Source of the DNA: a virus
IMG/VR virus record: IMGVR_UViG_3300043464_001613
Location: 1 to 25,454 of that record
Strand: one strand, 5' to 3'
Length of the DNA: 25,454 nt
The translations under genes and the position numbers were made by a program. Below, in pieces: positions 195-22,234 of this stretch. Within the stretch, counting starts at the first letter, position 1. Each line of letters starts with the position of its first letter. The notes below the pieces were generated by a model, which saw nothing but the letters and a program-made list of their open reading frames with translations, was not told the DNA's origin and ran no database searches.

Positions 195-202
195 TATAAA
201 TA
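195..202 (-). promoter_or_regulatory. TATTTATA element upstream of the protease gene
   Basis: Read on the minus strand this is GTATTTATAG, ending 16 nt before the protease ATG. The same 9-mer GTATTTATA precedes the portal, PspC and 8445-9404 genes. It is a candidate phage late-promoter element, by recurrence only. Confidence 0.4.
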
Positions 203-216
203 CACGGATATCCCTA

Positions 217-642
217 TTATTTTTTTGATTTATAAAAATTGAATAATTTTTTATCATTTAACCCTTTATCAATCACATTAATTAATACGTCTTTTACGTT
301 ATTTTTTATTTCCTTTGACTTTACATCAAATTGTCTATCAACGTATAATGTGATTTCAAGGTTCATAAATGACCTCTTTTCCATTTTAATACCCTTAGTC
401 CTAATGTCTAAATCAACAATACATTGTTGTTTAAATAATGGATTTTTTAAATTATAAATTATTTCTTTTACTTTACGTCTTGATTTATGTATTGTGACGT
501 CAAAGTCATCTGTTTCATTCTCAGGTTGTAACCAAGAGTTGAATTTTAAATAAATGGTTTTAAGATTTTTAAAATCTACGGTACCGTAACCGATTTTTAC
601 TTCATCGTAAGTCCCTAATGGGATATACTTACCTGTTTTCAT
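217..642 (-). CDS. Hypothetical protein between portal and prohead protease
   Basis: The 141-residue product is basic, has no signal peptide or membrane segment, and I do not recognise its family. It has a mixed alpha/beta look, with a lysine-rich C-terminus (KLFNFYKSKK). It lies between the portal-side genes and the gp21-like protease, which is the slot of the small prohead-core genes (67/68) in T4, but there is no sequence evidence for that role. Its ATG at 640-642 faces the bS21 gene across a 104-nt divergent region, so its promoter should lie there. The stop at 217 is close to the element that serves the protease. Confidence 0.6.
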   Translation of the reverse strand: MKTGKYIPLGTYDEVKIGYGTVDFKNLKTIYLKFNSWLQPENETDDFDVTIHKSRRKVKEIIYNLKNPLFKQQCIVDLDIRTKGIKMEKRSFMNLEITLYVDRQFDVKSKEIKNNVKDVLINVIDKGLNDKKLFNFYKSKK

Positions 643-678: not shown

Positions 679-734
679 AAAAAAATACACAAATTTTATT
701 ACAATTCCAAAATTATTTTCATATATTCGCAATA

Positions 735-742
735 TATTTATA
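735..742 (+). promoter_or_regulatory. TATTTATA element of bS21
   Basis: TATTTATA ends 4 nt before the bS21 ATG. No TTTG box lies 19-20 bp upstream, so it does not look like a normal host promoter. If it is a -10-type element, transcription would begin at or very near the ATG, giving a leaderless mRNA. Portal, terminase and PspC show the same spacing. Confidence 0.4.
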
Positions 743-746
743 AATT

Positions 747-938
747 ATGATTATAATAAACTTAAACAACGAAAAAAGTATTGAATCTGCTTTAAGAACT
801 TATAAACAAAAAGTTCAAAAAACAAAACAAATTCAAAAATTAAGAGAAAGACAAGAATTTGTAAAACCTTCAGTTAAAAAAAGAACTGAACGTTTAAAAG
901 CGATTTATGTACAACAAATAAAAAATGGTCTTAGTTAA
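747..938 (+). CDS. rpsU: Ribosomal protein bS21, Bacteroidota type
   Basis: The 63-residue basic protein aligns along its whole length with bS21 of Bacteroidota: start MIII, then ESALR.YK..V.KT, LRERQEF, KPSVKKR and AIYVQQ near the C-terminus. bS21 is a loosely held small-subunit protein next to the 16S rRNA 3' end. In Flavobacterium it helps form the pocket that hides the anti-Shine-Dalgarno sequence, and a tyrosine at position 54 has been implicated; this protein has Tyr54. It lacks the longer C-terminal tail of the proteobacterial protein. It is the only plus-strand gene in the head module, has its own upstream element, and ends inside a palindromic terminator shared with the convergent gene. 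Function in the phage (replacing host bS21 to favour phage mRNAs) is inference; the family call is firm. Confidence 0.93.
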   Translation: MIIINLNNEKSIESALRTYKQKVQKTKQIQKLRERQEFVKPSVKKRTERLKAIYVQQIKNGLS

Positions 939-949
939 GACCATTTTTT
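920..949. terminator. Bidirectional palindromic terminator at convergent gene ends
   Basis: A 14-bp perfect inverted repeat with only GT at its centre (core AATGGTCTTA/TAAGACCATT), flanked by A- and T-tracts, terminates transcription from both sides. Both stop codons lie inside it: bS21 TAA at 936-938 and the minus-strand TAA at 931-933. The two CDSs overlap by 8 nt, and both proteins consequently end in KNGL plus S or N. Confidence 0.85.
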
Positions 950-1668
950 AATTCTGATAACCTGTAGTAGTTATATCTTGAAGGTGACATTTCATTCACT
1001 TCCTTTTTAACATTATCTAATTTGTTTTTCAATTCCAAATCATTTGATTCTGTTAATAAACTATCAACCTTAGTTAAAACCGATTCTTTTAATTCTTCAG
1101 TTTGTTTTGTTAAATCCTCATATGATAATGAAAGTATAGTCTTCAATTGTCCTTGTTGTTCCTCATTTAATGTATTAGAATAAAGAACATTAAAGTTGTT
1201 TGCTAAAACAGCATGTAATAAATTTTCATTTGAAATTACTTTAGACTCTCCAATAACTTTAGTTTCTTTTTTAGTTGTTAAATGATCAACTAATTTTTTC
1301 TTCGCAATAACTTTACTCTCAATATTAGATAATGTGTCCTTAACCATTAATTGGTCTAAGGATTCATATAAATCATTTGTTGAAATTTCAATGTCACCTA
1401 ATTTCACATCTAATGATTGACAAAATTCAAGTAAGCTATTATTTTGTTGACTCAACATTGTTTCTACCCCCTCAACAAATAATTTAGCGGTTTCTTTATC
1501 TTCAATATACTTGTTTTCAATTTCTTCATAGAACAAATACATTTCTTTAAAATCTTTATTTTCCTTTATTGTTGATAAAATGTCTTTAACTTCGGATTTA
1601 TTTTCTTTAGTATAAGATTCCGTAATTTTAGTTAACATTTTAGTTTTTAGTGTTCCAAATTTGTTCAT
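931..1668 (-). CDS. Helical, acidic protein after portal (putative prohead core component)
   Basis: The 245-residue product is highly charged and predicted almost wholly helical, with long Leu/Lys/Glu heptad-like stretches and no Cys, signal peptide or membrane segment. I recognise no family. It starts 2 nt after the portal stop, so it is co-translated or co-transcribed with portal. In T4 the genes after portal encode prohead core proteins, which are also small, charged and helical, so a scaffold/core role is a fair guess from context and composition only. Its 3' end forms half of the palindromic terminator shared with bS21. Confidence 0.65.
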   Translation of the reverse strand: MNKFGTLKTKMLTKITESYTKENKSEVKDILSTIKENKDFKEMYLFYEEIENKYIEDKETAKLFVEGVETMLSQQNNSLLEFCQSLDVKLGDIEISTNDLYESLDQLMVKDTLSNIESKVIAKKKLVDHLTTKKETKVIGESKVISNENLLHAVLANNFNVLYSNTLNEEQQGQLKTILSLSYEDLTKQTEELKESVLTKVDSLLTESNDLELKNKLDNVKKEVNEMSPSRYNYYRLSELKNGLN

Positions 1669-1670
1669 TT

Positions 1671-3491
1671 TTAATCGTTTAAAATATCATTCAATTTATT
1701 TTCTATTTCATAAATATTACGTTGAGCCTTATCCATATCAAATAAGTCACTAAAATTTTGTTTTTCTTCTCCCAACATACCTAATATCTTTGATTTTTTA
1801 GATTTAGTGGATTCACTTAATGGTTCACCTCCACCTTCAGCCGGTGGCGGTGGTGCTCCTCCACCTAAATCCATTCCACCCATATCACCTCCAGCTTCTG
1901 CAGATGCCGCTTCCATTGCCTTTTCTCTCTCCTCTTCAGGAATACCATATTTCTTATCAACCTCATCAAATAAACCAGAACGTTTAATAACATTTTGTGT
2001 ATTTGTTAATTCAAATCCTAATGCACGTTCTAAACGTTGTTGTTGTAAATCTAACAACACTTCACTTTCACTCATACCAAGAATATTTTTCTTAGCCCAC
2101 GTATGTGATACAGGTAATATACCCATTTGAGATTGGTCAGATGTTGCGTCTTTATATAACGTAATTTTTTCTTTCCATTGTTCAATTTTCAACAAATCAG
2201 ATTGTGCTGATGGGTTGGTTAAAGACAATGTAAAATTATTTAATTCATCTTCCATACCTAAAAGGTATAAATGAATTAATGCAATTTTATTTAATTCTTG
2301 TATTAATGATTTTTGAATTCTATTGATTGTTCTTGCGAAACGAATATCCATCATCGCTAAACTCTTACCTTCACCAACAACTTCTTCAAATCCTAAAAAT
2401 GCTTTTGGAATACGTAAAGCGGCTAATAACTTCTTTTGAATATATTCAATATCTGCAATCTCACCTAAGTTTTGTGCTCCCGGTAATGTTTCAATTGGAT
2501 TTGTTTGTGATGGGTCACGAACAGGAATGAAATAATCTTGGTCAACTGCCATTTGATTATATCTCATATCTACCTGTCCATTATTTGGATTTTGAATTTG
2601 GTCTCTTTTGAATTTGTTCGCAACACGTTGTACATATGGTTCAATATCCTTATCATCCATATTTCCAACAAATATTTTAAATACACGTCTTTCAGGGGCT
2701 CTTGATGTTCTGTAGATTAACATTGCATCTTCAGCAAGTAAAAGTTGTTTCCAAATTCTTCTAATCTTATCTAACATAGAAGTACCATATGGTAACTTTC
2801 TATCATCACCCAACAATCTAAAGTGCGCAATTTCCCATGCTTGAAATTCCATATCTTTATTTTTCCACATAAATCGTAATTCACGACTTGGCATTTTTGA
2901 ATCTGCAATTTGTCCGTGGTTTCTTGCCGATGCACCTTCAATTCTTTCTATTTCAATATTTGGTAATTGTTGACAACCAACAATACCTTTTTCAGGATCT
3001 AATTTTAAATAAACAAAATCATCACCATACTTACAAACACCTCTTGCCCACATTTGTAGGTTGGTGTTAATATCTAATTTATTATTAAATAAATCTTCTA
3101 ATAGTCCTTTAATTCTATCTGACTCGGAATAGACTGTAAGAATTTCACCTTTCTCCGACATAGTCGTTGACTCTTCTGCGTAGATATCTAATGCCGCTGA
3201 AATTTCAGGAGTAAACTCCATTGATTCGTAGTCATAATATGCCGCCAATCTATTTGGTTCATAATAAACCGATTGATTATATAAAGATTGGTCTAATTTT
3301 GCCCATTTATCTGCAACGTATTGGCTTTGTTTTGCCTGTAACATTGCATTCTCATAATCTTCTCTATTATCTGTTTTTAATAATTCGTCTTTGTTAAAAT
3401 TAAATGATGGAGTGTTTTCCTGTTTTACTTGACCAGGAAACCCGAACATTTTAGTTAGTTTCTGAAAGACGGTTAAATTTTGATTTGCCAT
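1671..3491 (-). CDS. Portal vertex protein, T4 gp20-like
   Basis: The portal forms the dodecameric ring at the special capsid vertex, through which DNA is packaged and to which the tail joins. The 606-residue protein matches the gp20 family in length and in typical blocks: NRLAAYYDYE..EFTPEISAALDIYAEE (about residues 80-107), KYGDDFVYLKLD, EIAHFRLLGDDRKLPYGTS, IYRTSRAPERRVF.I.VG and LPGAQNLGEIADIEY..KKLL..L.IP. It differs from T4 gp20 in a Gly/Pro-rich linker (about 533-555) that includes a run of four prolines, before a helical C-terminus. It lies directly after terminase, with the tail sheath and tube genes that separate gp17 from gp20 in T4 absent. A TATTTATA element sits 4 nt before the ATG. 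Confidence 0.93.
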   Translation of the reverse strand: MANQNLTVFQKLTKMFGFPGQVKQENTPSFNFNKDELLKTDNREDYENAMLQAKQSQYVADKWAKLDQSLYNQSVYYEPNRLAAYYDYESMEFTPEISAALDIYAEESTTMSEKGEILTVYSESDRIKGLLEDLFNNKLDINTNLQMWARGVCKYGDDFVYLKLDPEKGIVGCQQLPNIEIERIEGASARNHGQIADSKMPSRELRFMWKNKDMEFQAWEIAHFRLLGDDRKLPYGTSMLDKIRRIWKQLLLAEDAMLIYRTSRAPERRVFKIFVGNMDDKDIEPYVQRVANKFKRDQIQNPNNGQVDMRYNQMAVDQDYFIPVRDPSQTNPIETLPGAQNLGEIADIEYIQKKLLAALRIPKAFLGFEEVVGEGKSLAMMDIRFARTINRIQKSLIQELNKIALIHLYLLGMEDELNNFTLSLTNPSAQSDLLKIEQWKEKITLYKDATSDQSQMGILPVSHTWAKKNILGMSESEVLLDLQQQRLERALGFELTNTQNVIKRSGLFDEVDKKYGIPEEEREKAMEAASAEAGGDMGGMDLGGGAPPPPAEGGGEPLSESTKSKKSKILGMLGEEKQNFSDLFDMDKAQRNIYEIENKLNDILND

Positions 3492-3495
3492 TCTA

Positions 3496-3503
3496 TATAA
3501 ATA
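3496..3503 (-). promoter_or_regulatory. TATTTATA element of portal
   Basis: On the minus strand GTATTTATA ends 4 nt before the portal ATG (3489-3491). No terminator separates terminase from portal, so this would be an additional promoter inside the late unit or a translation-start signal. Confidence 0.4.
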
Positions 3504-3545
3504 CTTTTCTTTATAATATAAACTAAAAACTTGACATTAGGAAGA

Positions 3546-5324
3546 TTATCTACGACCTCCAAACAACCAAGAATGTTCCCTATATGTTTCTTTATTAACA
3601 TTCATTTGTCCATTTTGATGTATGTTATGTCCCATACCATCAATACCCATCGCACCTATTTGGTCAAATGCGGTCCCATATGAATAATGTGATTTGTTAA
3701 CTTCATAAGTTCTTTCTGACATAGTCCAAGATTCTAACATGGCCTTATTTGCATTTTCACTTTTTTGTAACTGATTGAAACAGGTATCCGCAGCATAAAG
3801 AGCCATTGATAGACTCATAATTGCATCATCATGAGCACCTTTCATGTGGTCAGGTCTACCGTTGATATAGACAAAGGTATTTAATTCATTCAATAATCTA
3901 CTTGACCTTACCGCAAATCCTTTTCTTAATTGTTCTTCAAAGGCAGCAACTATCTGAGTACGTTTATTGTTAAAACTAATACCAGGTATTTTATCCATCG
4001 CCTTTTTATTATACTCCCAAATGTTTTGAGTATTAATACCGTCAATATAAAGATTTTTATAATTCATTTCTTGCAACTTTCTTGATGTTGCAACACCCAT
4101 ACCACCTGTTATGTCAGTAACAATAAAAGCACTATATAAAATACCCCATTTGTATGCTACTGAGGCTAAATCATCTGGCGGTATTTTACCAATATATTCA
4201 GCAACCTGTTCTCTTTCATCAAAATCTACAATACTAATAGATGAGAAATCTTCACTATCACCTCTACTAACATCAACTCCCATAATATAACGATGACCTT
4301 GTATTGGTTCTTTCCATTGCCAAAATGTTCCCTGCATGTATTTTTCAATAGGGATACGAATCATATTCTTAGCGATATTCTCTTGGACATCACCCGGTAT
4401 AACACCATCTCCCGAACCTAAAAAGTCACATTCCAATTCCTGTGCAATCTTACGTCTATCGTATTTAAATTTCTTAGACATAGACTCAAACCAAGATGAA
4501 TATGGTTTATAACCCAATTCAATATATTCATTATATTTTTCTGAATCAAAATCTTTTATTACAACTTCATCATCATTATATTGTTCTCTGTTTAACATAT
4601 AATGACAAATGTCATTACATTTAACCCAATGTAAATCTTTAGTATAACGAGGGTCATTAAACCATCTTAAGTCGGTAATGTGAAAATCATTAATACCACG
4701 TAATGCTTGATCATAAACACCGTAATATATGGGGTCATAACCATTTGGTGTGGAGATAAGAATAATCTTACCACCCGTTGATAGGGACGCCATAGATGCC
4801 GCCCAAAAATCATCACCTGCTTCAATATATGCAGCCTCGTCAAATACAAGTATTGTTGGTGTATAACCACGAAGGGCATCCGCCGATGTTGCAACCGCCT
4901 TAACTTCACAACCATTATTTAATCTAAATCTACTTTCAGAGTTTTTATCAGGTGAAAACCCAACATTAATCCAATCAGGCCACTGTTCTAAAAAGTGACG
5001 AACTTTATTCGCCATTTCCACCGCCGTATCTCGTTTGTTTGCAATTAGTAGAACTCTTTCAGGTTCATCAGGTTTTGCGGTTTGTAATTTCTTTGAAATC
5101 CATGCAGCAGTTACCGTAGTAACCCCTGCCTGTCTATATTTTCTTGTAATGTTCTCATTGTACTTTTCATAATCCTCAATCAATTGAATTTGGTCGGGAA
5201 ACAATTGTAACGGAACATATTTTTTCTGTGTATTATCGTAAGTCTGTAAATATGTTTTTAACGCATAAGGTGCGTCTTTCATTATTCTTGCATATTCAAT
5301 TAACTGTTCTGCTCTACTATTCAT
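3546..5324 (-). CDS. Terminase large subunit, T4 gp17-like
   Basis: This is the packaging motor ATPase and headful nuclease. In the 592-residue protein the N-terminal ATPase has a degenerate Walker A YRQAGVTT (63-70), of the gp17 'RQxGxTT' kind, Walker B ILVFDE (158-163) and coupling motif STPNG (191-195). The C-terminal RNase H-fold nuclease shows its acidic triad at Asp351 (GVDVSRG), Asp404 (VTDITG) and Asp499/500 (AHDDAIMSLS). Length is close to the 610 residues of T4 gp17. It is preceded by a terminator and a TATTTATA element 3 nt before the ATG, so it probably starts its own transcript, with portal downstream. No small terminase subunit is seen here. Confidence 0.96.
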   Translation of the reverse strand: MNSRAEQLIEYARIMKDAPYALKTYLQTYDNTQKKYVPLQLFPDQIQLIEDYEKYNENITRKYRQAGVTTVTAAWISKKLQTAKPDEPERVLLIANKRDTAVEMANKVRHFLEQWPDWINVGFSPDKNSESRFRLNNGCEVKAVATSADALRGYTPTILVFDEAAYIEAGDDFWAASMASLSTGGKIILISTPNGYDPIYYGVYDQALRGINDFHITDLRWFNDPRYTKDLHWVKCNDICHYMLNREQYNDDEVVIKDFDSEKYNEYIELGYKPYSSWFESMSKKFKYDRRKIAQELECDFLGSGDGVIPGDVQENIAKNMIRIPIEKYMQGTFWQWKEPIQGHRYIMGVDVSRGDSEDFSSISIVDFDEREQVAEYIGKIPPDDLASVAYKWGILYSAFIVTDITGGMGVATSRKLQEMNYKNLYIDGINTQNIWEYNKKAMDKIPGISFNNKRTQIVAAFEEQLRKGFAVRSSRLLNELNTFVYINGRPDHMKGAHDDAIMSLSMALYAADTCFNQLQKSENANKAMLESWTMSERTYEVNKSHYSYGTAFDQIGAMGIDGMGHNIHQNGQMNVNKETYREHSWLFGGRR

Positions 5325-5327
5325 ATA

Positions 5328-5335
5328 TATAAATA
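5328..5335 (-). promoter_or_regulatory. TATTTATA element of terminase
   Basis: On the minus strand TATTTATA ends 3 nt before the terminase ATG, just after a terminator hairpin. The order terminator, TATTTATA, ATG is repeated at 21,017-21,050 and 22,223-22,260. Confidence 0.42.
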
Positions 5336-5360
5336 TAAAAAAAGGGAGTTAAAACTCCCC
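5336..5360 (-). terminator. Terminator between 5366-6982 gene and terminase
   Basis: In minus-strand sense GGGAGTT-TT-AACTCCC is followed by seven Ts. It lies 5 nt after the stop of the upstream gene and just before terminase, so the terminase transcript needs its own start. Confidence 0.8.
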
Positions 5361-8444: not shown

Positions 8445-9404
8445 TTACTTAAAGTATTTGTGTAAGGTGCTGTTGATACTGTTGTTGATTTCTTTTTTGA
8501 TTTCGTCTAAATCTAACTCTTGAATATCTTCGTCACCTTCTTCTTTAATTGCATATTTTGATAAATCAATTTCATTTGAATCAACTGGTGTGTTAATGAA
8601 CTCATCTAAAGCTGCCATTGAGTCGTACTCAGCAACTTCTTGTTCAGGTTCTACAGCTGGTTCTTCAGATGGAACTTCCGCAGTTGGTTCTTCTCCACCT
8701 ACTTCTTCTTCTCTTTCAAACTTCTTACCAATTTCTTCAATATCTTCATCGTCTAATTTATCTAAATCAACTGCAGAAATAATCATATTCAAAATATATT
8801 TGATATCATCACTTTCCATTTGGTCTTGTAAATCTCTTAATTCTTGACCTAACTTACCTGCAAATTTTTGAGCTTCAGCCATATAAGATGACCTTTTACT
8901 ACCTTGTTCACCATCTACTGATGGAGTTTCCATTCCTGGCTCTTCATCCGGTACTTCTGCAGTTGGTTCTGCTGGTGGAACATCGCCCATTGCATCCGCC
9001 TCAGGTGCTGGTGGCATATCCATAGATGGTTCAGCCATTGGAGCTTCCTGTTGAGGTTTGTTTTGTTTTAAAACATATTTTGTGGCTTCCTGTAATTCTT
9101 CTTGTCCTCTCAATAATTCCATTCTTTTTAAAGCTTCGGCATATGAAGAAAACTTATTTTTATTCTTCATAAACATTCCACCGATATAATCAAGTGAAGA
9201 TTCGTTTAATCCTCTTTTTACATAATAACCGTCTTTTTCTTTAACGATACCATATAAACCACCTGTTGTTGATTCTTTAACCAACTCAGGTTTAGATGAT
9301 GATGAACTTTTATTGTTGTTTTTGTAGTATGTTAATTCAAGGATTCTTTTTAATTTGTCGTCCCCGTTTAATTTTTCACTACCAAGTGGTTTTAAATCTC
9401 CCAT
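8445..9404 (-). CDS. Acidic, Pro/Glu-rich structural-type protein
   Basis: The 319-residue product is unrecognised. The N-terminal ~115 residues are ordered and basic to neutral, with a serine run at about 36-40 and the segment YGIVKEKDGYYVKRGLNE. Two disordered Pro/Glu/Ala-rich linkers (about 120-170 and 235-260) flank a helical segment, and the tail is acidic and helical. It is the first gene of the 9404-5366 block and has the GTATTTATAG element 36 nt upstream of its ATG. Alternating ordered and acidic disordered parts are common in scaffold or internal head proteins, but there is no direct evidence. Confidence 0.6.
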   Translation of the reverse strand: MGDLKPLGSEKLNGDDKLKRILELTYYKNNNKSSSSSKPELVKESTTGGLYGIVKEKDGYYVKRGLNESSLDYIGGMFMKNKNKFSSYAEALKRMELLRGQEELQEATKYVLKQNKPQQEAPMAEPSMDMPPAPEADAMGDVPPAEPTAEVPDEEPGMETPSVDGEQGSKRSSYMAEAQKFAGKLGQELRDLQDQMESDDIKYILNMIISAVDLDKLDDEDIEEIGKKFEREEEVGGEEPTAEVPSEEPAVEPEQEVAEYDSMAALDEFINTPVDSNEIDLSKYAIKEEGDEDIQELDLDEIKKEINNSINSTLHKYFK

Positions 9405-9440: not shown

Positions 9441-9448
9441 TATAAATA
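9441..9448 (-). promoter_or_regulatory. TATTTATA element before the 9404-5366 block
   Basis: On the minus strand this is GTATTTATAG, 36 nt from the ATG, leaving room for a short leader. It is the same 9-mer as at the protease, portal and PspC genes. Confidence 0.4.
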
Positions 9449-9477
9449 CATAGATATATAGAAAAAAATAGGTCTAT

Positions 9478-10257
9478 TTATTGTGTTATAGACAATTTCT
9501 TATCTACAATGTCCGTTTTTAGTTTTAAAAGTTTTTGTATATAACCATTTCTACGTAGTAATTTGAAGGTTAAGTTCTCATATGAGTACTCTCCACCGGA
9601 TTCAAGACCACTTTGTCTAAACTCTTTTATTTTCTTTCTTAGTATTTCAATTTGAGGTAAGACGTCTTTTTTACTTCCAAGATTAATCAATTTATCAATC
9701 TTTTTAGCGTACTCCTCACCCTTTTCTAAAATTTTCCTATCGTCAATATTTGGTTTCTTTTGTTTAGGTTCAACTATCCATTCATTATGTAATATTGAAT
9801 ATACACCTGAAGATATATGTTCTTCATTCACGTCTTGGACATATACTTCCACATCAAAACCTTTGATTTTTACATCATGATTGTTGTTCCAAACGTTTTT
9901 CTTTGCATCAAAAAACTCTTTAATTATATTATGTAAGTAAACGGTGTCCTTATTTTTAGAACCATCAAATTCATCAAAATCAATTAAAATATGTAAATCA
10001 ACATCTGAAAATTGTGACCAATTGTAGTTTGCTAATGATCCTGTAAGTACAATATCGTGAATAAAAAATTCAATACCGAAGGTGCCAATAAAATCGTCCG
10101 ATATCTCTAAAAGTTTTTTTCTAATATCATCACGCATTTTATATTCGTTATCTGTTAATTCAAAAATATTATCAGATAAAGTTTCCTTTGATTTAAATGA
10201 CTTAACAATTTTTTTGTCAAGTTCTTTGTCTTCAATTAATTCCTCAAATAAACTCAT
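9478..10257 (-). CDS. Pol-beta-superfamily nucleotidyltransferase
   Basis: The 259-residue protein carries the nucleotidyltransferase signature GS(x)n-DxD: LTGSLANYNWSQFSDVDLHILID at residues 71-93, with Gly73-Ser74 and the metal-binding Asp85 and Asp87. A third acidic residue on a following strand is seen in FDVEVYV (Asp135/Glu137). The C-terminal ~100 residues are helical and basic. Enzymes of this fold transfer a nucleotide to RNA, protein or a small molecule; the substrate cannot be read from the sequence. It overlaps the KTSC gene by one nucleotide at 10257, so the two are co-translated. It could modify a host factor or RNA; a minimal-nucleotidyltransferase-type toxin is less likely because the protein is longer. 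Confidence 0.8.
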   Translation of the reverse strand: MSLFEELIEDKELDKKIVKSFKSKETLSDNIFELTDNEYKMRDDIRKKLLEISDDFIGTFGIEFFIHDIVLTGSLANYNWSQFSDVDLHILIDFDEFDGSKNKDTVYLHNIIKEFFDAKKNVWNNNHDVKIKGFDVEVYVQDVNEEHISSGVYSILHNEWIVEPKQKKPNIDDRKILEKGEEYAKKIDKLINLGSKKDVLPQIEILRKKIKEFRQSGLESGGEYSYENLTFKLLRRNGYIQKLLKLKTDIVDKKLSITQ

Positions 10258-10499
10258 TATAATTTTTGGTACTTATGTGCTTTTCCGATATTCTCGTTAA
10301 AGAACTTCCCCTGAGACTCAGCCATTCTAAATTTAGTGAACTTAGCCCAAGGTACTTTATTGTATACATAAATACTTCCGTTATTGAAAGTAACGGTTAA
10401 ATCCTCCGTTTCAGTATTATACGAAGCATTTTTAAGATTTGATGATTGAATGGTAATCTCTATAATCTTACCTTCAATTTTTTCTGATATTATACCCAT
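10257..10499 (-). CDS. KTSC-domain protein A
   Basis: The 80-residue product is essentially one KTSC domain (named for its occurrence at the C-terminus of some lysyl-tRNA synthetases): SSNLKNASYNTETEDLTVTF, GSIYVY.KVP, then SQGKFFNENI near the C-terminus. The domain's role is unknown; small stand-alone versions are frequent in phages and bacteria. It is a close paralogue of the next gene upstream. It overlaps the nucleotidyltransferase start by one nucleotide, and its own ATG follows a terminator. Confidence 0.85.
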   Translation of the reverse strand: MGIISEKIEGKIIEITIQSSNLKNASYNTETEDLTVTFNNGSIYVYNKVPWAKFTKFRMAESQGKFFNENIGKAHKYQKL

Positions 10500-10570: not shown

Positions 10571-10822
10571 TTAAATACTTTTTACCTTTTTATAGGTGAA
10601 GTTCTTTGAAATATTTTCATTGAAGAACTTTCCTTGTGATTTCGCTAATCTAAACTTAGTGAAAGTTGTTGATGGAACTTGTTTGTACTCATAAGCCGTT
10701 CCGCTGTTAAACAAAACTCTTAAATTTTCATTTAGCGTATCATAAGACGCAGACTTAAGACTGGTTGATTTAATTGATGTGTAAATCATTTTACCAGAGA
10801 TTTTTTCATTTTTTACTGACAT
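10571..10822 (-). CDS. KTSC-domain protein B
   Basis: The 83-residue product is a second single KTSC domain: STSLKSASYDTLNENLRVLF, GTAYEYKQVPS, FRLAKSQGKFFNENI. It matches the downstream copy along its length and clearly arose by tandem duplication. A near-match of the late element (AATTTATA) ends 4 nt before its ATG, as for bS21 and portal. A terminator directly follows. Function is unknown. Confidence 0.85.
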   Translation of the reverse strand: MSVKNEKISGKMIYTSIKSTSLKSASYDTLNENLRVLFNSGTAYEYKQVPSTTFTKFRLAKSQGKFFNENISKNFTYKKVKSI

Positions 10823-10889: not shown

Positions 10890-11246
10890 TTAGTTCAGTG
10901 AAATAAGTCTTTCCAAACTCTTTTTCTTATCAATTGGTAATGTGAGTGTTAGGATACCATTTTCAACTTTACCCAAAATATCTTTTTCTTTTACATCGTC
11001 AGGTATTGAATAGCTCTTTATGAAACTACCAACAAAATGATTACGATTGTCCGAATCAGACTTTTCGTAGGTGATTTTCAAAACACCTTCTTTAGTCATA
11101 ATTTTCAAATCATCTTTTGTTAGGCCAGGAACACTCAATGAAATTAAGTACTCTGTTTCAGTTTTTTCAATGTTAGTTTCAGGAGTTGATAAAAATCCCT
11201 TAGTATCAAATCCTCTGTAAAACGGGTCTTTAAATAATGTAATCAT
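10890..11246 (-). CDS. Small heat-shock protein, Hsp20/alpha-crystallin family
   Basis: Small heat-shock proteins are ATP-independent holdases that keep unfolding proteins soluble. I choose the start at 11246 (MITLFKDPFYRGFD, 118 residues). A longer reading from 11288 adds 14 basic residues but begins at the likely transcription start. The alpha-crystallin domain is visible: ETEYLISLSVPGLTKDDLKI, the 'GVLKITYEK' strand, IPDDVKEKDI and the closing NGILTLTLP motif. Only a short tail follows, and the usual I-x-I/V C-terminal motif is not obvious. The gene is divergent from the ClpC-like unfoldase, so two chaperone-type genes share one control region. Hsp20 genes are common in T4-like marine phages. 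Confidence 0.92.
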   Translation of the reverse strand: MITLFKDPFYRGFDTKGFLSTPETNIEKTETEYLISLSVPGLTKDDLKIMTKEGVLKITYEKSDSDNRNHFVGSFIKSYSIPDDVKEKDILGKVENGILTLTLPIDKKKSLERLISLN

Positions 11247-11285
11247 AATATATAATTTTTTATTTCTTATAATCAAAATTTTTAC

Positions 11286-11293
11286 CAAACATA
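11286..11293 (-). promoter_or_regulatory. Possible host-type -7 box for hsp20
   Basis: On the minus strand TATGTTTG fits the Bacteroidota -7 consensus TAnnTTTG, 40 nt before the chosen hsp20 ATG. The expected TTTG box 19-20 bp upstream is not evident, so this is a half-site only. Confidence 0.35.
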
Positions 11294-11403: not shown

Positions 11404-13434
11404 ATGTCAGTAGATTTTTTTGAAGATGGACCAACCACAAATCCTAAAAAAGGACGTAAAGGTTCTACAACCCCTATCTTAGATAACTTTTCTCGTGATT
11501 TAATTAAGATGGCGGAAGAGGGTAAAATTGACCCTGTAGTTGGTAGGGATAATGAAGTAAAAAGAATTGCACAAATTCTTTCTCGTAAAAAGAAAAACAA
11601 TGCGGTTATCGTTGGAGAATCGGGTGTCGGCAAATCCGCACTTGTTGAAAAACTCGCATTAATGATTTACAAAGGAGATTGTCCACCAAATTTATTGGAC
11701 AAAAGATTGGTTGCTCTTGATTTAACTTCCTTAGTTGCCGGTACAAAATATCGTGGTCAATTTGAAGAGAGGATAAAAGCAATTATTAATGAATTACAAG
11801 AATCCCCGAATGTAATTGTCTTTATTGATGAATTACATACAATGGTTGGGGCAGGTAATGCGAGTGGTGCGATGGATGCAGCTAACATTCTTAAACCAGC
11901 TTTGGCTCGTGGTGAAATGCAATGTATTGGTGCAACAACATTTGATGAATTTAAAAAACATATTGAAAAGGATTCCGCATTGGTTAGACGTTTTCAAAAA
12001 GTTATTTTAAAAGAACCGACTATTGACGAAACAATTGAGATTCTAAAAAACTTACGTGATTCTTATCAAGGATTTCATAAAGTAGAATATGAAGAAGGCG
12101 TTTTGGAAACAATTGTAAAACTTTCACATCGTTATATTACGGACAGACAATTTCCTGATAAGGCAATTGATGTATTAGACGAATTAGGTTCTGAAAAAAG
12201 AGTTTCATCTAAAGTTCCTGAAATTATTGAGAAATTAAAAAAGGAAATTGATTCTGTAAGAGATAAGAAAGTACAAGTAGTAAAAAGTCAAAATTATGAA
12301 CAAGCGGCCAAACTAAGAGATGAAGAGAAAAAAATTGTAACTAAATTAGAAGAAGAAAAGATTAAGTGGTCTAACAAACAAAAAAACAATAAAATACCAA
12401 TCACAATTGATGACGTATATGAAATTGTTTCTGAAATGACCGGAGTACCTATTACAAAATTAGATACGAAAGAAACTCAAAAACTTTTAAACATTGAGGA
12501 AACACTTTCATCTAAAGTTATTGGACAAGATGAGGCGATTGCAACAATATCAAAATCAATTAGAAGAAATCGTGTTGGTATCAAGGAAGCAAATAAACCA
12601 ATCGGTTCATTTATCTTCATTGGTTCAACTGGTGTGGGTAAAACATTTTTAGCCAAATCAATTGCTGAAATTTTATTCGGAGACCCAAATAAAATCATCC
12701 GTGTTGACATGAGTGAGTATATGGAAAAACATAATGTATCAAAATTGATTGGTTCACCACCAGGATATGTTGGTTATGATGAAGGTGGTCAGTTAACTGA
12801 AAAAGTTAAGAACAATCCATTTTCTGTAATCTTGTTTGATGAAATTGAAAAGGCTCATAGAGATGTCTTTAATATTCTTTTACAAATTTTAGATGAAGGA
12901 CATTTGACCGATTCCTTCGGTAGAAAAATTAATTTCACTAACACGATTGTTATAATGACTTCTAATGTGGGAGCTAAAAGAGTTTCTGAATTGGGAGGTG
13001 GAGTTGGATTCTCAACGACATCAAGTGAAAATCAAAAAGTTGAGGTTAGGAAAACTATGATACAAAAGGCCTTAAAACAACAATTTAATCCTGAGTTTTT
13101 AAATCGTATTGATGATGTTATTTTATTCAATTCATTAAACGAAGAAACGTTGAAAAAAATAATTAATCTTGAAATGGTTAGATTAAATAATAGATTGAAA
13201 GATAAAGGATATAAAATCACCTTTGATAAAACTGTAATCAATAGAATTTACGAATTGAACAAACAAGAAGAATACGGTGCTCGTCCTTTAAAAAGAATCA
13301 TACAAAATTTATGTGAAGATTTTTTAAGTGAGGAGATTTTAAAGGGTAACATAATTGAAGATGAGTCTGTTACAATAAAATATAAGAATGATGTCTTATC
13401 AATAAATAAATCAGCTAAAAAAGTCATTGAATAA
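11404..13434 (+). CDS. ClpC-like AAA+ unfoldase lacking the N-domain
   Basis: Hsp100 proteins thread substrates, feeding ClpP if they carry the docking loop. The 676-residue protein has two AAA+ modules: first Walker A GESGVGKS (71-78) and Walker B VIVFIDE (about 137-143); second Walker A GSTGVGKT (407-414) and Walker B VILFDE (475-480). A UVR-like middle segment (QNYEQAAKLRDEE, 297-309) marks it as ClpC rather than ClpB or ClpA. The ClpP-docking tripeptide is present as VGF (534-536). Compared with cellular ClpC (about 810-850 aa), the double Clp-N repeat domain that receives adaptors is missing, but the linker (VDFFEDG...TTPILDNFSRDL) is kept. It overlaps the next gene by one nucleotide (TAATG). 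Confidence 0.93.
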   Translation: MSVDFFEDGPTTNPKKGRKGSTTPILDNFSRDLIKMAEEGKIDPVVGRDNEVKRIAQILSRKKKNNAVIVGESGVGKSALVEKLALMIYKGDCPPNLLDKRLVALDLTSLVAGTKYRGQFEERIKAIINELQESPNVIVFIDELHTMVGAGNASGAMDAANILKPALARGEMQCIGATTFDEFKKHIEKDSALVRRFQKVILKEPTIDETIEILKNLRDSYQGFHKVEYEEGVLETIVKLSHRYITDRQFPDKAIDVLDELGSEKRVSSKVPEIIEKLKKEIDSVRDKKVQVVKSQNYEQAAKLRDEEKKIVTKLEEEKIKWSNKQKNNKIPITIDDVYEIVSEMTGVPITKLDTKETQKLLNIEETLSSKVIGQDEAIATISKSIRRNRVGIKEANKPIGSFIFIGSTGVGKTFLAKSIAEILFGDPNKIIRVDMSEYMEKHNVSKLIGSPPGYVGYDEGGQLTEKVKNNPFSVILFDEIEKAHRDVFNILLQILDEGHLTDSFGRKINFTNTIVIMTSNVGAKRVSELGGGVGFSTTSSENQKVEVRKTMIQKALKQQFNPEFLNRIDDVILFNSLNEETLKKIINLEMVRLNNRLKDKGYKITFDKTVINRIYELNKQEEYGARPLKRIIQNLCEDFLSEEILKGNIIEDESVTIKYKNDVLSINKSAKKVIE

Positions 13435-14506: not shown

Positions 14507-14935
14507 ATGGATAATGTAAACGAAACACAAGGCGAATTAATATTATTACGAGGTTTACCTGGTTCAGGTAAATCAACATTAGCAAAAATTATCTTACAAC
14601 TTAGAAGTACGGACGAACCTGAAGTTTTATCTGCTGATGATTTTTTTGAAGATAAAGAAGGTGATTACAATTTTGATGTGACTAAATTAAAAGAGGCACA
14701 TAACTACTGTCAGTTTAGGTGTTCTGAAAGAATGAGACAACAAAAGGCTAGAATTGTTGTTGCAAACACTTTTACTCAAGAATGGGAAATGGATGAATAT
14801 TTTAAAATGGCTGAAAGATACAATTACAGAGTTCATACAGTAATTGTTGAAAATAGACACGGGAATGAAAATGTCCACGGAGTACCCGAAGATAAACTTC
14901 AACAAATGAAGGATAGGTTTCAAATCAAATTATAA
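14507..14935 (+). CDS. P-loop kinase, polynucleotide-kinase-like
   Basis: The 142-residue protein is an AAA_33/zeta-type P-loop kinase: Walker A GLPGSGKST (16-24), the acceptor-side acidic pair in SADDFF (Asp44, Asp45), and VVANTFT with Asn87 on a later strand. T4 polynucleotide kinase has the same kinase fold in its N-terminal half, but its C-terminal 3'-phosphatase domain is absent here. The RNA ligase starts 13 nt downstream, and a cREC protein follows two genes later, which suggests 5'-OH RNA phosphorylation before ligation. Other small kinases of this fold act on other substrates, so the RNA role rests on context. Confidence 0.78.
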   Translation: MDNVNETQGELILLRGLPGSGKSTLAKIILQLRSTDEPEVLSADDFFEDKEGDYNFDVTKLKEAHNYCQFRCSERMRQQKARIVVANTFTQEWEMDEYFKMAERYNYRVHTVIVENRHGNENVHGVPEDKLQQMKDRFQIKL

Positions 14936-14948
14936 GTGAGTCAATTTA

Positions 14949-16088
14949 TTGAATCTTATTTTAAATCACAATACCCACCTCAAAAAACACCACTCAAAAA
15001 CTGTGTTAACCACATTAGAAAAATATTACGAAAATGGTTTGTTACATAAACAAACCCACCCAACTCTTGATTTAACTATTTGGAATTACTCACCAAAAGT
15101 TCAATATGAAAGATTGTGGGATGATATTACCATACAATGTCGTGGATTAGTTACAAATTCAAAAGGTGATATTGTTGCAAGACCATTTAAGAAATTTTTT
15201 AATTACGAAGAACATAAACCAGAAGATATTCCAAATGAACATTACGAAGTGTATGAAAAAATGGACGGTTCTTTAGGTATTCTTTTTAATTATGAAAATG
15301 AATGGGTAATGGCAACTCGTGGATCATTTACCTCACCACAAGCAATTAAAGGAAAAGAACTATTAGAGAAATATAATTTCAAAAGATTACATACTAATTA
15401 CACATACTTGTTTGAAATAATTTACAAAGAAAATAGAATTGTATGTGATTATGATTATGAAGATATTGTCTTATTAGGTATGATTGAAACAAAGACAGGA
15501 AACGAAGTTAATATTCATAACAACAACGAAGATATTCGTTTTAAAAATATGATTTCCAATATTGGATTTCGTGTTGTTATGTTATATAAAACATGGGGGG
15601 AGACTTATGATTTATTAAAAGAAGAAATACAAAAGGATAGAGAAGGATATGTAATTAAATTTAAGAGTGGTTTTCGTATGAAAATTAAAGGAGAAGAATA
15701 TAAAAGATTACATAAAATATTAACAAATTTTTCATCCAAAGATATTTGGGAATTAATGAAAGAAGGAAAACCTTTAGATGAATTTTTAGATAGAGTTCCT
15801 GACGAATTTTACAAGTGGGTTAAACAACAAGTAAGTTCTTTTGAATATGCCAAATATAGAATTAGGGAACATTGTGGTAAGATACATGATTATTTTAGAT
15901 ATGGAAAATATGGAGATGTATATCCCGAACCAACAAAAAAAGACTTTGCATTACATTTAGAAAAATGTAATACCGAATCACACTATAAATCAATATTATT
16001 TGCAATGTGGGATGGAAAACCATATGAACATATGATTTGGAAGATAATGAAACCTAAATACGAAAAACCATTTAAGAAAGACGAATGA
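14949..16088 (+). CDS. RNA ligase, T4 Rnl1 family
   Basis: ATP-dependent RNA ligases seal 5'-phosphate to 3'-OH ends; T4 Rnl1 repairs tRNA cut by host anticodon nuclease. Residue numbers assume a TTG start at 14949 (379 aa; T4 Rnl1 has 374). The nucleotidyltransferase motifs are in place: nucleophile Lys104 in EKMDGSLG (motif I), FEIIY with Glu156 (motif IIIa), EGYVIKF (232-238, motif IV) and KIK (245-247, motif V). The N-terminal QCRGLV and RPFKKFFNYEE blocks are typical of the Rnl1 family. No ATG is available in frame before motif I, so the start must be TTG, or GTG at 15003. The stop overlaps the next ATG (ATGA). Confidence 0.92.
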   Translation: MNLILNHNTHLKKHHSKTVLTTLEKYYENGLLHKQTHPTLDLTIWNYSPKVQYERLWDDITIQCRGLVTNSKGDIVARPFKKFFNYEEHKPEDIPNEHYEVYEKMDGSLGILFNYENEWVMATRGSFTSPQAIKGKELLEKYNFKRLHTNYTYLFEIIYKENRIVCDYDYEDIVLLGMIETKTGNEVNIHNNNEDIRFKNMISNIGFRVVMLYKTWGETYDLLKEEIQKDREGYVIKFKSGFRMKIKGEEYKRLHKILTNFSSKDIWELMKEGKPLDEFLDRVPDEFYKWVKQQVSSFEYAKYRIREHCGKIHDYFRYGKYGDVYPEPTKKDFALHLEKCNTESHYKSILFAMWDGKPYEHMIWKIMKPKYEKPFKKDE

Positions 16089-17815: not shown

Positions 17816-17847
17816 ATCCCCGTAGTTTTTACTTCGGGGATTTTTTT
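17816..17847 (+). terminator. Second tandem terminator
   Basis: ATCCCCG and CGGGGAT form a 7-bp stem, extended by AGT/ACT inside the loop, followed by seven Ts. It ends at the stop codon of the convergent outer-membrane protein gene and insulates the two arms. Confidence 0.85.
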
Positions 17848-19276
17848 ATAAGGTCATTCTACTACCAATCAAGAAGTTATGTAAAATAGGGCTATATGGT
17901 TGTGTGGACCCATTCATTCTATAGTTAAAACTAAATCCAAATCTTTTACTTAATTTATAATCAAAAGAACCTCCAACCAAATATCCTGCATGTCTATTAA
18001 CCATACTTACTCCCGTAACTGTGTTATAAGATAATGGTGAAGACATAACAAATAATTGAGGTGATATAGAAAGTTTCTTTGAATAAGCATATGGTTTAGT
18101 CCAAAAAGCAACTGCGGAACTTACAACACTATAATTAAATTTACCTTTTTCATCCTTAATAAATAAATTTACAACACCAATATTATATCCATAAGTTCCA
18201 AATTTAGGATGTGGTTTTATGTAGGTATATCCGAGTAAACCCATATAATTACCATTCAAATATGCGGTTGTAACACCATAAGAATGAATAGCATTTAATT
18301 TACCACCACTAAAGTCCATTTTGGTATAACCACCACCTAATGCAAATTGTTTTAGGTTACTCCATATAATAGCATTTGCAGAAAATGATTCGTCACCCAT
18401 TAATGATGACTTACTCCAACCTAACCCTAACATTGAACCAAAACTTTTATCTGCGTTTTGAGCTACAGTATAATCTGAGGCAATTAACATAGGATTTAAT
18501 ACACCACTTTTCTTTTTTTCTTTCTTGTCTTCTTTTTTGTCCTTCTTCTCCTCTTTCTTTTCCTCTTTCTTCTCTTCTTTCTTTTCTTCAGATTTTTTCT
18601 CTTCTTTTTTTTCCTCACTCTTACTTTCTGATTTTTTTTCTTCCGATTTACTTTCAGATTTAGATTCACTCTTTGTTTCAGATTTTGATTCCGACGATGA
18701 TGATGAACTACTTTCAGTCTTTGATTCAGAAGATGATGATGAACTACTAGATGATGAACTACTAGATGATGATGAACTACTAGATGATGAACTACTAGAT
18801 GATGTTGTACTTGAACTTGATGTTGCAGCAGAACTACTTGATGCTGATGAACTTGCGGCGGTTGATGCTGATGAACTAGCGGCGGTTGATGCAGACGAAC
18901 TTGCAGCACTACTTGCGGCGGATGATGCAGCATTACTTGCGGCTGTTGATGCGGCGTTACTCGCCGCGGTCGCCGCCGCTTGTGTAACCGTATTTTGTAT
19001 TGTTTGTTGAACTACCTGATTTGTTGGACAGGCCATTGAGTTGTATGTTGCATAAGTTGTTTGTAACCATAATTGTAATTGTCCTGTTTGAACTTCTAAA
19101 GGTGTAAATGTTTTACTTTGATTATAAAAAGACACAAATGCATTACCACTAATATAAGTTGTTGTTGCAACTTTAACTTCACCTGTACATTTATCAATAA
19201 ATGTTTGTGTAAATGTTTGAGATTTAACAGATAAACTAGTAAAAATAATAATAACAAATAAAATTAATTTTTTCAT
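17846..19276 (-). CDS. Outer-membrane beta-barrel protein with Ala/Ser, poly-Ser and Lys/Glu linker
   Basis: The 476-residue precursor has a signal peptide (1-20, ending VKSQ), a small N-terminal domain (21-95) with Cys30 and Cys83, an Ala/Ser-rich repeat (99-157), an almost pure serine run (about 153-183), a Ser/Glu/Lys then Lys/Glu repeat (184-255) and a C-terminal beta-rich domain (257-476). The last part alternates aromatic and polar residues (LALGGGYTKMDFSGG, SISPQLFVMSS, RFGFSFNYRMN) as in outer-membrane barrels. It shares the 'SPQ[LI]F.MS' and 'K..KRF' blocks with the barrel at the right edge. The linker could span the periplasm or extend at the surface. It overlaps the oxygenase gene by one nucleotide. 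Function is unknown. Confidence 0.75.
   Translation of the reverse strand: MKKLILFVIIIFTSLSVKSQTFTQTFIDKCTGEVKVATTTYISGNAFVSFYNQSKTFTPLEVQTGQLQLWLQTTYATYNSMACPTNQVVQQTIQNTVTQAAATAASNAASTAASNAASSAASSAASSSASTAASSSASTAASSSASSSSAATSSSSTTSSSSSSSSSSSSSSSSSSSSSSSSSESKTESSSSSSSESKSETKSESKSESKSEEKKSESKSEEKKEEKKSEEKKEEKKEEKKEEKKDKKEDKKEKKKSGVLNPMLIASDYTVAQNADKSFGSMLGLGWSKSSLMGDESFSANAIIWSNLKQFALGGGYTKMDFSGGKLNAIHSYGVTTAYLNGNYMGLLGYTYIKPHPKFGTYGYNIGVVNLFIKDEKGKFNYSVVSSAVAFWTKPYAYSKKLSISPQLFVMSSPLSYNTVTGVSMVNRHAGYLVGGSFDYKLSKRFGFSFNYRMNGSTQPYSPILHNFLIGSRMTL
18512..18982 (-). repeat. Low-complexity coding microsatellite (Ala/Ser, Ser, Lys/Glu)
   Basis: Short imperfect repeats of GATGATGAACTACTA type (plus-strand reading, about 18690-18805) encode serine runs; GCGGC-rich units encode Ala/Ser; CTTCTT-type units encode Lys/Glu. 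Large antisense and out-of-frame open frames in this stretch are by-products of the repeats. Confidence 0.85.
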
Positions 19277-21016: not shown

Positions 21017-21024
21017 TATAAATA
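21017..21024 (-). promoter_or_regulatory. TATTTATA element of the PspC gene
   Basis: On the minus strand GTATTTATAG; the octamer ends 3 nt before the ATG and follows a terminator. Same terminator-element-ATG order as at terminase. Confidence 0.42.
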
Positions 21025-21050
21025 CTAAAAAAGGGGTTATTCAACCCCTT
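21025..21050 (-). terminator. Terminator overlapping the end of the FeoA-like gene
   Basis: In minus-strand sense AAGGGGTT-GAAT-AACCCCTT is followed by TTTTTT. The FeoA-like stop codon (21037-21039) lies in the stem-loop, so the stem encodes the last residues (KGVE). Confidence 0.82.
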
Positions 21051-22222: not shown

Positions 22223-22230
22223 TATAAATA
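22223..22230 (-). promoter_or_regulatory. TATTTATA element before the 22210-21037 operon
   Basis: On the minus strand TATTTATA ends 12 nt before the ATG and follows directly on a terminator. A near-match (AATTTATA) at similar spacing (11 nt) precedes the 23167 gene. Confidence 0.4.
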
Positions 22231-22234
22231 TAAA

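Follow-up and report, generated by a model that had tools for sequence, protein, structure and literature searches.

Among the ribosomal proteins reported in phages, bS21 is to our knowledge the commonest, and we know of no established use that phages make of it. The locus described here poses this question in a specific form: what would a phage achieve with a bS21 gene of the Bacteroidota type that retains Tyr54 and sits in the middle of its head genes? The window, by which we mean the entire stretch of DNA that was analysed, is a fragment of 25,454 b from an IMG/VR virus record, and its ORF list contains a gene running from ATG to TAA, the product of which is recognized as bS21 by several criteria. 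Pfam Ribosomal_S21 (PF01165) matches over its full length (E 1.7e-12; 47.2 bits versus a curated cut-off of 27; residues 4–56 on profile positions 2–54 of 55), PHROG 21469 'ribosomal protein S21' is a further match (E 9e-6), and the best solved relative in a phmmer search is the bS21 of Flavobacterium johnsoniae (7jil_z, E 1.1e-11, residues 1–62). Residue 54 is Tyr both by count and by alignment to the F. johnsoniae protein, with which the phage protein shares 44% identity. The initial annotation had proposed a 63-aa phage bS21 with Tyr54 at positions 735–938, and this identification holds, as does the end of the gene, whereas the start codon lies at 747, 12 nt downstream of 735.

This bS21 is not a chance reading frame, since 278 IMG/VR stretches encode a relative and pN/pS is 0.21 over codons 1–57 of 76 distinct genes, from which it also follows that the protein is under purifying selection. 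Eighty of the 278 stretches were kept from the first scan, and with the addition of four further scans and five INPHARED loci, bS21 was present in 304 of 321 viral loci. Counting identical stretches (from 30 nt upstream to the stop) only once and excluding L131, which has no start near the expected place, reduced these to 151 distinct bS21, 123 with the 245-aa neighbour found in the window and 28 others. Most of the 17 portal loci without bS21 end at or near its expected place. The only one in which both flanks are present is L150, where the neighbour gene and a 141-aa gene adjoin without an intervening bS21 (8600–8708), providing an example of a natural bS21-less state.

The genes around bS21 are arranged on the minus strand in the order TerL, portal, 245-aa gene, 141-aa gene and prohead protease start, with bS21 inserted on the plus strand between the two hypothetical genes (Table 1). 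Accordingly, its convergent placement within the head module, as originally annotated, can be specified as a site with portal-side genes on one flank and protease-side genes on the other. It overlaps the convergent 245-aa gene by 8 nt and diverges from the 141-aa gene; among relatives, every one of the 142 loci with both bS21 and the 245-aa neighbour shows the two genes convergent. This neighbour, which may be the bS21_CN of Chen et al., has no Pfam or PHROG match, and a search by fold was equally unproductive (AF2 pLDDT 81.6, i.e. locally confident, pTM 0.47, best PDB E 5.1). The 141-aa protein likewise lacks a Pfam or PHROG match above the cut-off, while the full protease homologue encoded in L002 matches PF03420 (Peptidase_S77, E 1.1e-22).

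Table 1. Positions of the features in the window
Feature	Position	Strand	Basis or remark
Prohead protease, N-terminal piece, ends at contig end	2–178	-	Homology to L002 protein
141-aa protein divergent from bS21	217–642	-	Conserved neighbour in relatives
-7 box TATATTCG	722–729	+	One mismatch to Bacteroidota TAnnTTTG; 17 nt before ATG; predicted leader ~13 nt
ATATTTATA element, putative phage promoter	734–742	+	4 nt before ATG; also at portal, TerL and other genes
Phage bS21 (rpsU-like), 63 aa, Tyr54	747–938	+	ORF; PF01165; 7jil_z; pN/pS in relatives
Palindrome, two-way terminator-like hairpin	919–950	both	Spans both convergent stop codons
Convergent 245-aa all-helical protein, function not assigned	931–1668	-	No Pfam/PHROG match; AF2 model
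T4 gp20-like portal	1671–3491	-	PF07230 E 1.7e-75
Large terminase (TerL)	3546–5324	-	PF03237 E 4.4e-11; phrog_2 E 8.5e-36
RTATTTATA copies	195–203 (-), 734–742 (+), 3496–3504 (-), 5328–5336 (-)		Putative promoter
RTATTTATA copies, continued	9441–9449 (-), 21017–21025 (-), 22223–22231 (-)		Putative promoter

Such an arrangement has been described previously. Chen et al. (2022, PMC9723584) reported 47 genomes of Bacteroidetes phages, described as myophages and grouped in clades a–e, which carry bS21 on the reverse strand in the neighbourhood of TerL, portal, protease and MCP; Tyr54 was found in 54 of 61, and the complete genomes measured 293–331 kb with a GC content of 31.0–33.7%. In lake metatranscriptomes, bS21 was co-expressed late together with capsid and structural genes, and the phage protein was proposed to replace host bS21 in a late takeover of the ribosome. 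In the window, too, bS21 is on the opposite strand and flanked by conserved hypothetical genes, TerL and portal are nearby, and residue 54 is aromatic (Tyr). Protease and MCP lie within about five genes in the published group; here, the protease start was recognized by homology at 2–178 and the MCP would fall past the contig end. The GC content of ~30.6% (mean of 25 full 1-kb bins) is slightly below that of the complete genomes, as measured on a fragment, and the largest related contigs reach 335,630 b (L033). The gene is a real, selected bS21 of the published group. The gene itself, its place, Tyr54 and the takeover idea were all described by Chen et al., so none of these is new. Both its kinship and the host-type -7 box found in relatives (see below) point to a Bacteroidetes host. 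Its position in the head module could also be taken to indicate mere cargo that does nothing in translation, or a role away from the ribosome such as that of a protein packaged in the virion. Given the purifying selection, the invariant Tyr54 and the conserved transcription signals belonging to the gene itself, we regard such a role as very improbable.

Several other genes in the window are worth recording. A Clp-type AAA+ ATPase with a UVR motif (11404–13434, +) adjoins an Hsp20 gene (10890–11288, -), and McNutt et al. (2023, PMC9976891) have speculated that a phage protease might act on host bS21. Two similar small ORFs lie in tandem at 10257–10499 and 10571–10822 (-), the first of which encodes a KTSC-domain protein (PF13619, E 8.3e-18). 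A T4 Rnl1-like RNA ligase (14949–16088, +; PF09511, E 3.1e-21) is found beside a P-loop kinase-like gene (14507–14935; PF13671), possibly constituting an RNA repair pair, and the protein encoded at 17846–19276 (-) has a signal-like start and a long Ser/Ala- and Lys/Glu-rich low-complexity stretch.

The phage protein retains Tyr54, which is present in 123 of 123 distinct relatives of the same gene setting as well as in 80 of 80 host loci; the 28 other phage bS21 have Tyr in 26 cases and His in two (for residue comparisons, three loci with portal/TerL that lack the neighbour gene were treated as a separate group). The C-terminal half is host-like in the 123 relatives, with K40, S42, R46, K51, A52 and Q56 largely kept. 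For the traits expected of a bS21 that hides the anti-Shine-Dalgarno (ASD) sequence, namely Tyr54 and the residues contacting the 16S 3' tail, bS18 and bS6, the comparison extends to Tyr54 and the C-terminal half, both of which are kept. The initial interpretation allowed the phage protein either to keep or to loosen ASD occlusion, and the constancy of Tyr54 together with the largely kept C-terminal residues favours the former. The N-terminal residues K7, G9, R21, F23 and G27 are fixed or nearly so in the 80 host loci, but mostly replaced in the phages: F23 by V in 100%, G27 by K or R in 99%, position 28 by Q (T28Q) in 99%, and R21 mostly by Q, N, S or Y. Chen et al. (PMC9723584) reported divergence in the same N-terminal helix and hypothesized a specialised ribosome, in which the altered helix would confer a preference for phage mRNAs. 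Replacement of residues that are invariant in the hosts speaks for such a role. However, phage and host start regions resemble each other in being rich in A/T and having no SD, and the only feature found to be peculiar to phage mRNAs is their very short predicted leaders. We consider this explanation possible, though rather unlikely.

Bacteroidota hosts lack SD sequences on nearly all of their genes. The window was initially noted to be almost devoid of SD sites, and indeed none of its 33 ORFs of at least 60 aa pairs with the ASD at -7 kcal/mol or better, while 11 of 525 ORFs among 80 relatives reach this value at the first ATG. This scarcity had been cited as fitting a phage bS21 that either keeps or loosens occlusion and so changes which mRNAs are started, but it is uninformative in this respect, because the hosts exhibit it as well. 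The informative contrast lies within a single gene. In the host, rpsU is autoregulated via an extended SD that is read by bS21-lacking ribosomes, and F. johnsoniae ribosomes with truncated bS21 initiate inefficiently on mRNA that has no SD but do better on rpsU (McNutt et al. 2023, PMC9976891). We scored SD strength as the pairing energy between the 16S tail and the 25 nt preceding each start, using tails taken from the genomes (GGAACACCTCCTTTCT in Flavobacterium and an altered ACATCTCATTTT in a Chryseobacterium). An extended SD is present in all 18 Flavobacterium-type rpsU loci, with energies between -19.9 and -20.9 kcal/mol, and six Chryseobacterium rpsU loci score -14.6 kcal/mol with their own tail. 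For the phages, only genes ending in KNGL and having 25 nt upstream were included. These comprise 53 distinct start regions with a median of -0.6 kcal/mol, of which two get as far as -7 (strongest -7.1 kcal/mol) and none as far as -13; the window itself scores +1.5 kcal/mol, far from an extended SD better than -13. The wider set of 123 gives the same result (two at -7, none at -13), and AGGAG, GGAGG or GAGGT occur in positions -30 to -1 of 0 of 83 phage bS21. Fisher tests on this contrast, like those on the stem covariation discussed below, ignore kinship. Loss of the SD is a trait of this group relative to Flavobacterium-type hosts rather than of phage bS21 generally, since, of the 56 remaining host loci (from Bacteroidales and other groups), 41 have no SD at -7 and 7 have one at -13, and 8 of 25 phage bS21 outside this setting reach -7 and two of 25 reach -13. 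Four bS21 outside the group (L333, L261, L255 and L265) have SDs of -12.1 to -13.6 kcal/mol, and in L333 and L265 there is no other SD gene among those counted in 10 kb, making them possible examples of phages that keep the switch.

The upstream regions of the phage genes also contain transcription signals of two kinds. In the KNGL-ending set, 49 of 67 distinct upstream regions carry TAnnTTTG within 60 nt, mostly 16–20 nt before the ATG, whereas for five neighbouring phage genes a single one of 355 upstream regions does. Flavobacterium-type rpsU has the same type of box 29–31 nt before its ATG. As the box spans -12 to -5 in F. johnsoniae (Baez 2019, PMC6847099) and is also found in F. psychrophilum (PMC9723704), the predicted leaders are ~25 nt for the host and 13–14 nt for transcripts that would arise from the phage TATATTTG box. 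With a predicted leader shorter by ~11–12 nt, the part bearing the SD would consequently be absent. TAnnTTTG is not enriched over the whole window (34 found versus 45 expected); what makes it informative is solely its constant position ahead of bS21 in relatives. A sigma-70 promoter scan yielded nothing (7 found versus 4.6 expected), and this promoter type is inapplicable to Bacteroidota (PMC6847099, PMC9723704). The second signal, RTATTTATA, which characterizes this phage group, lies 3–36 nt before a same-strand gene in all seven of its copies in the window, often only 3–4 nt from the ATG, and no more than 40 nt upstream of one in 203 of 233 copies in relatives. It is located 3–6 nt before the portal and TerL ATG and mostly 13–20 nt before the protease, while the form RTAYTTATA is present in 34 of 67 bS21 upstream regions, mostly 4–5 nt before the ATG. 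If this is a -10-like promoter element, the AUG would be at, or immediately beside, the 5' end of the portal, TerL and bS21 mRNAs. RTATTTATA is a putative phage promoter that may yield leaderless or near-leaderless messages.

At its 3' end, bS21 shares a palindrome with the convergent neighbour. A terminator scan matched this segment on the minus strand (0.1 expected), T runs are present in both directions, and the two strands fold at -14.9 and -16.0 kcal/mol (z -4.6 on both). The two arms belong to different genes, the 8-nt overlap aside. In 31 of 32 distinct stems the third bases of the paired Gly codons match (26 GGT/GGT and 5 GGA/GGA; the exception is GGC/GGT), and those of the Asn codons similarly match in 31 (26 and 5, with one exception), all covarying changes being synonymous in both proteins. 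Mapped onto an 86-row portal tree, they amount to three (Gly) and five (Asn) independent changes in the same direction and none in the opposite direction, with one Asn pair showing no difference; neither site alone reaches 0.05 in this tree-based analysis. Over the last six codons, divergence at synonymous sites amounts to 0.28 versus 0.60. It is very likely that a DNA or RNA stem is under selection here, and conservation of the C-terminus therefore need not signify ribosome function. Where Chen et al. (PMC9723584) took the conserved phage C-termini as a possible sign of such function, the terminator-like stem offers an alternative reading. That the stem alone accounts for the KNGL ending could not be sustained. 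In hosts, bS21 of the Flavobacterium type mostly terminates in DGLES (15 of 80 host loci), so KNGL may partly reflect ancestry, and in L121, L154, L155 and L156 the neighbour keeps LKNGL while the bS21 ending differs and no such palindrome is seen. Both endings differ in L145, L147 and L161. In L151, L153 and L159 the genes do not overlap and a hairpin lies in the gap of 73–76 nt, where it is preceded by a conserved GGCGGCTACCTTAGAGGT-like stretch.

Based upon these features, the explanation we favour, and to which we would assign about an even chance judging from sequence, is that the phage supplies a bS21 that hides the ASD and whose synthesis lies beyond the host feedback loop, thereby keeping ribosomes replete for SD-less phage mRNA. 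The protein would be made from its own SD-less transcript; lacking an extended SD, its synthesis should be independent of bS21-lacking ribosomes and thus escape the feedback. It would then enter 30S subunits, bS21 occupying a late-assembled and exchangeable site, where the C-terminal half with Tyr54 would keep the 16S 3' tail hidden in the manner of host bS21; the complete retention of Tyr54 together with the conserved C-terminal half supports this explanation. So do the SD contrast with Flavobacterium-type rpsU, the shared -7 box, the pN/pS of 0.21, the behaviour of F. johnsoniae ribosomes with truncated bS21 (McNutt 2023, PMC9976891) and the late co-expression with capsid genes (Chen 2022, PMC9723584). 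Ribosomes would presumably remain fully supplied for SD-less phage mRNAs even if expression of host rpsU fails or is repressed. The initial interpretation is supported in part: that host bS21 is replaced late can reasonably be supposed, as Chen et al. already did. A narrower version, which we consider unlikely, is that a feedback-blind, ASD-hiding bS21 of host type, translated from an mRNA that has no SD and may be leaderless, both supplies bS21 and holds host rpsU off; if true, the phage would be taking over the sole Flavobacterium gene circuit that still uses the SD interaction. In a rival explanation, ribosomes carrying the phage protein, with the ASD hidden, might keep host rpsU repressed such that host bS21 is permanently displaced. 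The retention of Tyr54, the missing SD of the phage gene and the finding that ribosomes lacking bS21 are the ones that translate host rpsU best (McNutt 2023, PMC9976891) are all compatible with such a self-locking state, but host shut-off may render it irrelevant and the same authors suggest the reverse role, i.e. autoregulation as a host counter-measure; we therefore judge it quite improbable. Other observations weigh upon the favoured explanation of bS21 supplied outside the feedback loop. Firstly, absence of the SD is the default for phage genes of this group and may simply reflect drift to the norm. Secondly, if the true host is Bacteroidales-like, there would be no loop to escape, as only 7 of 56 such loci have an SD at -13. 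Thirdly, a plain top-up of bS21 leaves the near-fixed F23V, G27K/R and T28Q unexplained. Lastly, the bS21 of pelagiphage HTVC008M enters E. coli ribosomes, which speaks for this explanation, but it lowered translation to ~5%, which counts against it (Mizuno 2019, PMC6375957).

What is added here to the published description is the invariance of Tyr54 among all 123 relatives, the SD contrast, the shared -7 box with a shorter leader, and the covarying two-way hairpin. The leader, -7 box and terminator of phage bS21 are not treated in the main text of Chen et al. (PMC9723584), the available portions of McNutt et al. (PMC9976891) discuss phage bS21 with no analysis of its start region, and a non-exhaustive literature search found no other paper plainly on this subject. 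The host gene in Bacteroidota has a measured feedback switch, for which reporters and mutants exist in F. johnsoniae. A phage copy with Tyr54 but without the switch turns a general takeover idea into a simple reporter test, and the missing switch suggests how a phage may keep ribosomes working for itself.

In comparison with known systems, HTVC008M likewise encodes a bS21 and is a myovirus, but its protein is presumably not of the Bacteroidota ASD-hiding type, given its Pelagibacter host, and differs in this regard from that of the window. Much closer are the phages of Chen et al., which share with the window group the opposite-strand bS21 between two hypothetical genes near TerL, portal and protease, the aromatic residue 54, low GC and Clp/chaperone genes, although theirs are complete genomes and the window is a 25 kb fragment. 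The host counterpart in F. johnsoniae has Tyr54 and a TAnnTTTG-type box in common with the phage genes, whereas its rpsU has an extended SD that phage bS21 lacks, its predicted leader is longer, and its N-terminal helix is different.
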